Assembly (NCBI GenBank): GCA_020852965.1
Contig: JADYZV010000075.1
Location: 1-64,000, forward strand
Length of the DNA stretch: 64,000 nucleotides
From: Pirellulaceae bacterium
GTDB taxonomy: Bacteria > Planctomycetota > Planctomycetia > Pirellulales > Pirellulaceae
Direction: 5' to 3'
This document shows positions 499-64,000 of the stretch, piece after piece (within the stretch, counting starts at the first letter, position 1; each line of letters begins with the position of its first letter). The notes beneath the pieces are model-generated. The model was not told the DNA's origin. It did no database searches and was given only the letters and a program-made list of their open reading frames with translations. The translations under genes were made by a program, and so were the position numbers.

Positions 499-1698
499 GT
501 GAATTATAGGCTTGTAAGCACTATCGACGACCTCCCGGAGCTCATCGCTGCCATTGAATCGGCTGACCTCGTAGGTATGGATACCGAGTTTGTCGCCGAG
601 GACTGCTACCGGCCCGACCTGTGCCTGTTGCAAGTTTCTACGCGCAGCGACGTATTCATTGTCGACCCCCGCACCATCGACGACCTGAGCGCAATCTGGC
701 AAATGTTCGTCGATGGCGAGCGAACCGTTATCGTACACGCTGGTCGCGAAGAGATTTTATTCGCCTACCGGAGTACCGGTCAGTCGATCTCAAGGCTTTT
801 TGACGTGCAGCTTGCCCTGGGCTTGCTGGGCGGTGAGTTTCCTGCATCGTATGGCAAACTGTTGCAACGTATACTGGGCGAGACCGTTGCCAAAGGGGAA
901 ACTCGTACCGATTGGCGCAGGCGACCCCTTTCTTCGGCACAGCTCGATTACGCCGCGCTCGATGTGCTCCATCTGCCGCAACTCTACGACGCACTATCAA
1001 GCGAGCTAGCCAAGCTCGGACGCCTGCAGTGGCTCGAAGACGAATTGCTTCGCCGCCAAGCTAGTCTAATCGAGACCCAAGTCCAAGAGGGCTGGCATCG
1101 CATGTCTGGGATCCAGTCGCTTTACGGCAAACAATTGGGAATCGTCCGCGAACTGTGGACCTGGCGCGATCAACGAGCCGAACAAAAGAATATGCCCGCG
1201 CGTCGAGTGCTACGCGATGACCTGATTATTGAATTGGCCAAACGCGGGTCATCCGACGCCAAAAAAATTGCACACATCCGCGGCTTACACCACCCTGGCT
1301 TCCAGCGATTCATTCCCGAAATTGCAGACTGCGTGGCCCGCGGCCTGCACTCCGACACCCCCGATCCCCCTTGGCAAGGACAAGGCAAGCGGCCACGGCC
1401 ACCCGCGATCTTGCAACAATTCTTAACCGCTGCCATGTCCTATCTTTGCCGAACACACAATATCTCTCCTACCATCGTCGGCACCTCTGACGATGTGGGC
1501 AAGCTGGCCTCATACTGGATGAGCGGCGAGGAATTGAAGTCGACCGATCCCGATTATCCCCACTTGTTGCGCGGTTGGCGAGGTGAATTGGTCGGTCATC
1601 CGTTGTACCATATCTATTCCGGAAAACGGGCGCTACGCGTAAAAGACCCTCAAGATGAAATGCCGCTGAGCCTGTGCGATGTCGAGTCTGAGTCTTAG
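499..1698 (+). CDS. rnd: ribonuclease D (DEDD exonuclease + HRDC)
   Basis: 399 aa; GMDTEFVAEDCYRPDLCLLQVST exonuclease motif, DYAALDVLHLPQLYDAL motif, C-terminal HRDC-like region; GTG start. Confidence 0.92.
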   Translation: MNYRLVSTIDDLPELIAAIESADLVGMDTEFVAEDCYRPDLCLLQVSTRSDVFIVDPRTIDDLSAIWQMFVDGERTVIVHAGREEILFAYRSTGQSISRLFDVQLALGLLGGEFPASYGKLLQRILGETVAKGETRTDWRRRPLSSAQLDYAALDVLHLPQLYDALSSELAKLGRLQWLEDELLRRQASLIETQVQEGWHRMSGIQSLYGKQLGIVRELWTWRDQRAEQKNMPARRVLRDDLIIELAKRGSSDAKKIAHIRGLHHPGFQRFIPEIADCVARGLHSDTPDPPWQGQGKRPRPPAILQQFLTAAMSYLCRTHNISPTIVGTSDDVGKLASYWMSGEELKSTDPDYPHLLRGWRGELVGHPLYHIYSGKRALRVKDPQDEMPLSLCDVESES

Positions 1699-1701
1699 TG
1701 G

Positions 1702-1785
1702 TTCTTGGTTCTTGGTTCTTGGTTCTTGGTTCTTGGTTCTTGGTTCTTGGTTTTTGGTTCTTGGTTCGTAGTTTTTGGTTTTTAG
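1702..1785. repeat. heptanucleotide tandem repeat (TTCTTGG)n, 12 contiguous units (7 exact, then mixed exact/degenerate)
   Basis: Read directly: seven exact TTCTTGG units 1702-1750, then TTTTTGG, TTCTTGG, TTCGTAG, TTTTTGG, TTTTTAG. Confidence 0.97.
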
Positions 1786-61842: not shown

Positions 61843-62727
61843 ATGAATCGCAGCCACACGCCGAGCAGTTCGACCCTCCCACAGACTTCGCCGCGCGCGG
61901 AGATTTCCGACTATTACGACGACACGCTGCTCGACTACGATATGTGGAGCCCCGAAGGCTATTTGCATTTCGGCTATTGGCGTCCCTACCTAAATCCCTT
62001 CGTGCGGCGCCCCATGCTCGAAGAGATGAATCGATTCATCTTTCAGCACTTGGGATTGGCTGACTGGCACGAAGGGGCCGTCGCCGACTTGGGATGTGGT
62101 GTGGGAGCCGTGTCGCGCTTTGGCAGTCAGCTCTATCCGCAGCTCGAGTTCCATGCCATGTCGATCTCACCTGGCCAAATCGCCTCGGCAATGCAGCGCC
62201 ATTCGGCACAACGAGTAACCTACCATTGTGGTGACTATCACACTCTCCCGTTCGAAGACGAGTCGATCTCAGGTGTATTTTACCTAGAGAGCCTGTGTCA
62301 TAGCACGCAGCCCGAGCAAGCCCTGAACGAAGCAGCCCGAGTCCTCAAACCAGGCGGACGCATCGTCATGACAGACGGCTACTTGCGTCGACCTCTACAG
62401 CAGACCTCGCCGCTGTTTCGCACTATCGTCAAGGGAGTCGCCCACAATTGGGCCGTTCCCATGTTCCATGAATTGGAACTTGCGCGGCGATGGACTGGCG
62501 ACGGTCGCCTCCGTTTGGTGAAAGACATCGAGTGTGGTTGGCGGTTGGGACCATCAGCGCTGCATGCTGCACATCTAACCACTCTTCATTTTCTCAAGCT
62601 GGCACTCAAACGCGGTGTTACCTCTTGGCAATGGAGACACCTAACCGCCTCGGCCTACACCATCGCCTTAGGATTGTACCGACGCCACTTTCACTACCAT
62701 TTACTAGCGTTTGAAAAGGGTTCTTAG
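61843..62727 (+). CDS. class I SAM-dependent methyltransferase
   Basis: GAVADLGCGVGAVSRFGSQLYP (motif I), LNEAARVLKPGGRIVMTDGYLR; overall similar to sterol/tocopherol-type methyltransferases. Confidence 0.92.
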   Translation: MNRSHTPSSSTLPQTSPRAEISDYYDDTLLDYDMWSPEGYLHFGYWRPYLNPFVRRPMLEEMNRFIFQHLGLADWHEGAVADLGCGVGAVSRFGSQLYPQLEFHAMSISPGQIASAMQRHSAQRVTYHCGDYHTLPFEDESISGVFYLESLCHSTQPEQALNEAARVLKPGGRIVMTDGYLRRPLQQTSPLFRTIVKGVAHNWAVPMFHELELARRWTGDGRLRLVKDIECGWRLGPSALHAAHLTTLHFLKLALKRGVTSWQWRHLTASAYTIALGLYRRHFHYHLLAFEKGS

Positions 62728-62797
62728 TTCTTGGTTCTTGGTTCTTGGTTCTTGGTTCTTGGTTCTTGGTTCTTGGTTCTTGGTTCTTGGTTCTTAG
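62721..62797. repeat. heptanucleotide tandem repeat: TTCTTAG-(TTCTTGG)9-TTCTTAG
   Basis: 11 contiguous heptamers; the first contains the TAG stop of the methyltransferase gene. Confidence 0.97.
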
Positions 62798-62855
62798 CTA
62801 CGAGGCTCTCATGTTGCGATTGGCCATTCAGGCGTGCCCCGAATGGCATGAGAAG

Positions 62856-64000
62856 CTACTCCGCCATCAGGTACGCAATTAAATCGGCGATAGCCTGCTT
62901 ATCGAGCGTTTCCTCAAGACCTTGGGGCATTAGCGACAGACCTGTGTTTTTGATCTGATCGATATCCACCCGCAAGACGGTTTCCGTGACACCTTCGTCT
63001 TTCTTCAACGTGATGCTCGTCGCTCCTTCATCGACGATCATTCCAGAGATCACACGGCCTTCGAGCGTTACGACAAGGTAGTTGACATACTGAGGATTGA
63101 CCTCGCTATTGGGGTCTAGAATAGATGCCAACAATGTCTCAGCACCACGAGACTTGATCGCCATCAAACTGGGACCCAGCTCATGTCCGACTCCTTGCAC
63201 GCGATGGCACGCGCTGCAAGATTTCTTAAACACCTCACGGCCTCGATCAATATCGGCTGGCATGGAAAGTGACACACGATACTGGGCAATAATTTTCTCG
63301 CGAAGAGCTGCTTGCTCTGCCGTTCGTGGACTGGTAGGTGGCGAGATTGTGTGAGTCGACCCGGCATCCCGTGGCGCGTCCTTGGCTCGTTGGCGGGCAG
63401 CGACCTGTTCGGCAATCTGCTTTGAAAACTCTGGATCATCCACAACCTCATTCAAATGCTCAACGTCCTCGCCGATCGAGCTCATCACGGCCGCGCGCAT
63501 CCATCGATCTGCTGGGTCGCGAGCTAGCACTCGCAAGAGTCGTTCGGTTCGTTGCGGTGCCGGCCCATCGCCGAGGGCGAACGCTAACTGGTAGCGTACC
63601 TCCATCGATTCGTCATCCACCAAATCCCCCAACGCGGCGGAAAGTTCAGGCGTCCACTCCATCGGTCCCGCCAATCGAACCGCGTGACGGCGAACTTGTG
63701 CGTGGGTGTCCGCCAGAGCAACGAGGATGGTGGCTTCGTCCAGTTTCCTCAAACCGCTCAGCGCATATAACGCGTGCATCCGCCCCAGCGCTGATGAACT
63801 GTTGCGAACAAGTTGCTTCAGTGGTTCGATCGCAGCTGGATCCTGCCGCTCGTATAGCAATCGCGCTGCCGTTTCGCGGTGCCAAGCGTTCTCATGGGCC
63901 AGCAGGGCAACCAGCTCGAGCGTGCTGCGCCCGCTCAAATCAATTGGACCCGAAGACCGAAATCCACTCGGTACGACTTGGTATATGCGTCCCGCATCGC
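62856..64000 (-). CDS. PVC-type c-type cytochrome / HEAT-repeat dehydrogenase, C-terminal part, truncated by window edge
   Basis: CSACHRVQGVGHELGPSLMAIKSRGAETLLASILDPNSEVNPQYVNYLVVT; HEAT-like repeats; frame stays open to the edge as GRIYQVVPSGFRSSGPIDLSGRSTLEL. Confidence 0.92.
   Translation of the reverse strand, partial: DAGRIYQVVPSGFRSSGPIDLSGRSTLELVALLAHENAWHRETAARLLYERQDPAAIEPLKQLVRNSSSALGRMHALYALSGLRKLDEATILVALADTHAQVRRHAVRLAGPMEWTPELSAALGDLVDDESMEVRYQLAFALGDGPAPQRTERLLRVLARDPADRWMRAAVMSSIGEDVEHLNEVVDDPEFSKQIAEQVAARQRAKDAPRDAGSTHTISPPTSPRTAEQAALREKIIAQYRVSLSMPADIDRGREVFKKSCSACHRVQGVGHELGPSLMAIKSRGAETLLASILDPNSEVNPQYVNYLVVTLEGRVISGMIVDEGATSITLKKDEGVTETVLRVDIDQIKNTGLSLMPQGLEETLDKQAIADLIAYLMAE

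Follow-up and report, generated by a model that had tools for sequence, protein, structure and literature searches.

The window, i.e., the whole stretch of 64,000 nucleotides analysed here (contig JADYZV010000075.1 of the Pirellulaceae assembly GCA_020852965.1), carries two tandem arrays of the heptanucleotide TTCTTGG. The second adjoins a gene on the plus strand (61843 to 62727), whose product of 294 amino acids is, judged by its match to the Pfam family Methyltransf_11 (E-value 9e-21), a genuine class I methyltransferase. The ORF ends with FEK (K encoded by AAG) and GGT-TCT-TAG, and these final two codons and the stop are array sequence. The array itself extends from 62719 to 62797 (plus strand), its left end lying within the methyltransferase C-terminus, and is composed of GG, one TTCTTAG, nine TTCTTGG and a final TTCTTAG. 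Positions 62721 to 62797 read as 11 in-phase heptamers with constant unit length throughout, the GG at 62719 to 62720, just upstream of the first TTCTTAG, is also in register, and Tandem Repeats Finder reported 62719 to 62795 with period 7, 11.0 copies, 97% matches and a score of 147. The first-pass annotation had described 11 perfect heptamers with TTCTTAG as first and last unit and the methyltransferase stop inside the first of them; both points were confirmed, the TAG being located at 62725 to 62727. Between the distal end of the array and the stop of a convergent gene, 58 bp of intergenic DNA are left over (62798 to 62855), in which a simple scan detected no terminator- or promoter-like sites. 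Searches for Rfam families, promoters and terminators in the surroundings of the array at 62721 to 62797 likewise gave no matches. The convergent gene (62856 to 63998, minus strand, stop at 62856) is open towards the end of the window and codes for a protein with a CxxCH haem-binding motif.

Methyltransferase orthologues from other species have the C-terminus FE(K/R)Q-TGA or a different one, and in none of them is the ending GS-TAG or TTCTTAG found, which here follows directly on FEK. Since the orthologues never finish in TTCTTAG, the comparison indicates that the array replaced the stop of the methyltransferase together with the codon before it, and did not grow out of a pre-existing TTCTTAG. 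The first array of the window (1699 to 1785, plus strand) starts 0 bp beyond the TAG stop of its upstream gene (577 to 1698, plus strand) and includes the degenerate distal units TTTTTGG and TTCGTAG. The orthologue of this upstream gene in the sister species G060 has the C-terminus CDAH-TAG.

Within the home genome (8.37 Mb, 199 contigs) 326 exact overlapping matches to (TTCTTGG)3 were counted (219 + 107). The 59 other genomes of the family together contain two overlapping matches, which represent one array in one genome, so that the abundance in the home genome is not due to chance. At the level of the phylum any match was present in nine of 292 genomes, the home genome being counted among the nine, and 13 of 14 congeners lack arrays of the TTCTTGG unit, G067 being the only exception. 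The orthologous regions of G060 and G066 are array-free; arrays are not kept between the same genes across related species. Eighty arrays, gathered by pattern and region, were located and read, and several contigs were additionally picked regardless of arrays as a less biased sample. Contigs amounting to 0.86 Mb, read nearly end to end, contained about 11 arrays, from which a total of roughly 100 arrays in the home genome can be extrapolated. The arrays are composed of the unit variants TTCTTGG, TTCTTAG, TGCTTGG and TGCTTAG and have lengths of 21 to 274 bp (up to about 39 units). Across the 859 kb of contigs covered almost completely, period 7 accounted for 21 arrays, period 6 for two and period 8 for four.

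Contigs of the home genome terminate within TTCTTGG/TGCTTGG arrays in 11 cases (C9, C36, C41, C65, C78, C79, C98, C107, C117, C170, and C195); array lengths are therefore underestimated and the assembly is fragmented. At one locus (L081, 9180 to 9659) a TTCTTGG array is fused to a 316-bp array of the heptamer ATGACGG with 45 copies. Exact (TTCTTGG)4 was also found in 68 stretches of viral contigs (L182 to L249).

For the analysis of array placement each array was oriented to read TTCTTGG, with its 5' end as left and its distal end as right end, and an end not more than 20 bp from a start or stop codon was regarded as lying at a coding edge. The strict test, based on a purpose-written codon-usage gene caller, placed 57 of 76 left ends and six of 72 right ends at an edge. 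Random placement in the same regions gave an expectation of 11.8 out of 67 with a maximum of 22 over 20,000 simulations, and 50 were observed. About nine of the other 19 arrays adjoin genes which the caller had overlooked or misjudged, such as those for a cytidine deaminase, a Zn-ribbon protein and an NAD-binding dehydrogenase (with Pfam support). As this gene rescue covered left ends only, the test was rerun with one relaxed criterion applied symmetrically, which yielded 65/76 left ends and 9/73 right ends at edges, compared to 47 of 400 random intergenic points. Right ends are at random level, left ends are not, and it is a fixed end of the array that lies near the ORF edge whatever the orientation of the ORF. 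The G/T-rich strand thus begins at the coding edge, and the distal end falls at any point of the intergenic DNA. No tRNA genes were found beside the arrays distant from an edge, and the single tRNA gene detected is located far from the array.

The 66 arrays abutting an edge comprise two kinds: 37 are located at the stop of a gene on the same strand and 29 at the start of a gene on the opposite strand. The arrays are genuinely associated with gene ends, though not with stop codons as such. That the array-abutting start codons are genuine follows from the comparison with G060, in which the alignment begins at residue 1 for SucD, CysD, TrpA, SufS and KsgA and at residue 3 or 4 for PurB, IlvD, PduL and HisC. 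Shine-Dalgarno statistics were left out, because the gene caller relied on this motif when choosing starts. Overlaps of more than 3 nt into the gene occurred in 15 of 37 stop-type arrays vs. two of 29 start-type arrays (p = 0.002). Stop-type arrays furnish the TAG of the gene and cover as many as 17 nt of its end; for some start-type arrays one base of the ATG comes from the array. Where the array overlaps the stop (half of the stop-type arrays), this is always a TAG in the unit register, whereas TAG, TAA and TGA are all present among stops that are not overlapped. Between divergent genes five of 60 array regions were found, vs. 76 of 471 array-free regions (p = 0.06).

The arrays are also graded internally. 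TAG-type units gather at the coding end, and the proportion of TGC-type units is 0.17 at the coding end vs. 0.45 at the distal end (nine vs. 29 arrays, p = 0.0017). Arrays off the edge, of which there are 10, have a median length of 50 bp vs. 103 bp for those at an edge (p = 0.012; p = 0.0013 with the G067 arrays added), and this dependence on length fits a left end that moves. Left junctions revealed no clear phase or microhomology preference and left flanks no common sequence; for the distal ends a phase preference was computed from the counts (chi-square about 27 on 6 d.f.). In RNA folding the C/A strand gave 0 kcal/mol and the G/U strand -10.9 kcal/mol, a weak fold. As DNA neither array strand folds into a hairpin alone, so that a structural stall on the G/T template is unsupported here.

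The sister species G067 shows the same polarity, with six of nine left ends and none of nine right ends of its own arrays at edges. Distal array ends of this species pass into other heptamers with the period of seven kept, and at L160 (5120 to 5263, minus-strand coordinates), L155 (4745 to 4836) and L157 (2788 to 2861) the unit changes stepwise (TTCTTAG, TTCTTGG, TGCTTGA, TTCCTGG up to TCCTTAC) at exact period seven. Further heptamers in the home genome (GGGAGTT, GCTTGAG, AGTTGCT, ATTTGAG, and CTGGGAG), oriented by their G/T-rich strand, tend to follow the edge rule as well (left 10/25, right 3/25). In five genomes of distant planctomycetes that carry heptamer arrays, 14/72 left and 9/72 right ends lay at edges. 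The edge rule is therefore strong in the home genus, weak or absent in the five distant planctomycetes, and not universal. One of these five genomes contains 33 arrays of period 7 vs. two of period 6. The distant planctomycetes G197 and G082 (L313 to L320, L324 to L327) harbor dozens of heptamer arrays (AGTTCTT, GATGGAC, CGGTACT, and others), with period 7 far above periods 6 and 8.

Two further repeats occur in the home genome. A GTAG-tagged palindrome (GTAGTGGACGAGG...CCTCGTCCACTAC, also given as GTAGTGGACGAGGTTACGAGTCC...CCTCGTCCACTAC) is abundant: about 1 Mb yielded 91 strand-counted matches to its 11-base core, and sites occur throughout L031 to L087 (e.g., L040:77, L052:9642, L066, L079, L084). 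About seven TTCTTGG arrays have it directly at their distal end. The palindrome resembles the GTAG-tagged REP palindromes (PMC3733652); the TTCTTGG arrays, which differ from that element in having neither a palindrome nor terminal repeats, mostly occur apart from it. The second is a degenerate inverted-repeat element (GGGAATGCAAAATGAGAATTGA...TGCATTTTGCATT) with arms that are themselves AT-rich repeats of period 7. Its copies are mostly located in array-bearing intergenic regions (L034, L036, L049, L053, L067, L082), that at L031:11119 being array-free. We also considered the arrays as the terminus of a larger mobile element, to which repeats shared among the right flanks (such as a GGGAATGCAAA element and hairpins) had seemed to point, and rejected this, as array-free intergenic regions are about equally repeat-rich: varied repeats were present in 42 of about 70 right flanks and in 166 of 318 array-free intergenic regions, which is little difference.

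Taken together, the TTCTTGG arrays can be regarded as one family of intrinsically polar heptanucleotide satellites, dispersed over the whole genome, for which we tentatively favor polar growth, or loss of spacer, towards the coding sequence until selection halts it (probability roughly 0.4). Arrays would arise and lengthen via replication slippage in steps of seven bases, and growth or spacer loss would proceed one way, towards the 5' end of the G/T-rich strand, up to the coding sequence, where purifying selection would halt the advance. Selection would set this boundary, because we know of no DNA signal that would mark, with a precision of a few bases, stop codons on one strand as well as start codons on the opposite one. 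The C-terminus would be a soft limit, at which a few codons can be consumed because a TTCTTAG unit brings a new stop, and the start codon a hard limit that cannot be passed. Several observations weaken this reading: the edge rule is weak in the five distant planctomycetes, growth at the distal end would equally fit the gradient of units, the length comparison comprises only the 10 off-edge arrays, and the comparison of intergenic lengths gave no direct sight of spacer loss. After subtraction of the array, the log2 ratio of intergenic length to that of sister species had a median of -0.06 and a mean of -0.62 (n = 11), vs. a median of 0.00 for controls (n = 53), which fits insertion without loss and overwriting alike. 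The remaining lengths are similar to those of array-free regions within the home genome, and both models predict similar distributions. Intergenic DNA of the home genome and the sister species is not alignable.

A precise addition at coding edges without any loss, by recombination, break repair or a mobile-element-like insertion or priming that leaves the old intergenic region intact past the distal end, appears rather unlikely to us. It would account for a remaining intergenic length equal to that of array-free and sister regions, for the same unit variants in about 80 dispersed copies, for the phase preference of the distal ends, and for a unit that is missing in the close sister G060 and occurs in G067, the more distant of the two by most of the proteins compared. 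Against it stand the missing common sequence in the left flanks and the left junction without clear phase, the greater frequency of longer arrays at edges, and the lack of a known DNA signal common to both kinds of edges. Hallmarks of mobile elements (conserved termini, inverted repeats, target duplication at both ends) are not displayed by the arrays. Reverse transcriptase as the agent was rejected, as the gene counts do not follow the arrays: two genes are present in the home genome, two in G067 and 10 in the array-free G060.

It is less probable still that the arrays are kept for a function, in which unstructured leaders (CCAAGAA before starts) or 3' trailers (UUCUUGG after stops) would modulate translation or mRNA stability, by analogy to the proposal for TAACTGA repeats in Beggiatoaceae (PMC4679880). 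The transcribed orientation is consistent, with the unstructured C/A strand before starts and the folding G/U strand after stops, and the highly conserved genes sucD, cysD, trpA, ksgA and ilvD bear arrays at their start codon. But the unit is absent as an array from nearly all congeners (13 of 14), the neighboring genes are functionally mixed, the opposite orientations are at random level and not purged, and array length spreads from 21 to 274 bp. The arrays are probably neutral or selfish elements rather than regulators, and the unstructured C/A-rich leader may explain why they are tolerated upstream of starts.

The first-pass annotation had concluded that the two arrays of the window are no coincidence, and had proposed targeted seeding or expansion from genes which by chance end in TTCTTAG or GTCTTAG. 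The former is borne out by the genome-wide association with gene ends in a fixed orientation, which holds for the other arrays of the genome too (65/76 left vs. 9/73 right ends). Seeding as a rule is very improbable: half of the stop-type arrays do overlap a stop that is then a TAG in unit register, but the 29 of 66 edge arrays at start codons refute it as a general rule, and the array itself supplies the TAG. Nor is the suspected preference for TAG stops preceded by CT found, given these opposite-strand starts and the occurrence of TAG, TAA and TGA alike at non-overlapped stops, and the methyltransferase orthologues end otherwise. At one ThiF-like gene (L032), whose ending Leu-Gly-Ser-stop is shared by the sister species, a match that was already there may have played a part. 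A placement dependent on G-quadruplexes, as considered for the GGGAATC/GGGGATT repeats of Xanthomonas and Nostoc with the same polar placement of the G-containing strand (PMC4692102), is hardly credible, since TTCTTGG has at most two consecutive G and hence no GGG run or canonical motif, yet obeys the edge rule closely.

Dispersed heptamers with a polar placement have been described before. According to Rehm et al. (2015; PMC4692102) GGGAATC in Xanthomonas and GGGGA(C/T)T in Nostoc/Anabaena are mostly intergenic and almost exclusively nearer to the 5' neighboring ORF irrespective of its orientation, with averages of 28 nt to the 5' ORF and 160 nt to the 3' ORF for the Xanthomonas repeat. For these heptamers, overlaps with stop codons and a deficit between divergent genes were reported as well; no function was found (PMC4692102). 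The TTCTTGG arrays share with them the dispersal, the polar placement and the stop overlap, but lack the G-runs of quadruplexes, reach up to about 39 units where four are preferred in Xanthomonas and Nostoc, have graded unit types along the array, and come within a few bases of the edge. MacGregor (2015; PMC4679880) reported TAACTGA heptamers from Beggiatoaceae, Cyanobacteria and Bacteroidetes, which are patchy across phyla, most often end 1 nt before starts in a Beggiatoaceae genome and in some cases overlap upstream stops. Apart from the different unit, these repeats are short (two to six copies) and in their main genome mostly at starts, whereas stops and starts are about equally represented here. 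With units of exactly 7 bp and copy numbers above chance, the TTCTTGG arrays belong to the heptamer class of the long simple sequence repeats of prokaryotes, in which period 7 dominates and for which polymerase slippage was suggested (Mrazek et al., 2007, as cited in PMC4679880). With these and the cyanobacterial STRRs they have the period of seven in common; a polar placement rule is not among the features described for either in the accounts used here.

Judging from the units, we would take the strand whose 5' end lies at the gene to be the more G/T-rich one in the repeats of Xanthomonas, Nostoc and Beggiatoaceae too. A general, sequence-independent and strand-polar process, in which heptamer arrays of Planctomycetota and these three groups, with the G/T-rich strand beginning at a coding edge, would grow or lose spacer one way until coding selection stops them, is a doubtful extension of the polar reading; if it were true, array ends would mark the true limits of selected sequence. 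The novelty of our findings is modest: this kind of repeat is extended to another phylum and to a unit that has no potential for quadruplexes. What makes them interesting is that the boundary is sharper, that edges of two kinds (stop and start) are involved and that the quadruplex explanation is removed in the case of TTCTTGG. Heptamer arrays are common in bacteria, and the question why they expand in steps of seven bases and hug gene edges is now testable as polar growth limited by selection. In the organism studied here the arrays remodel gene ends, where they introduce other C-terminal residues and another stop codon, and they fragment assemblies.
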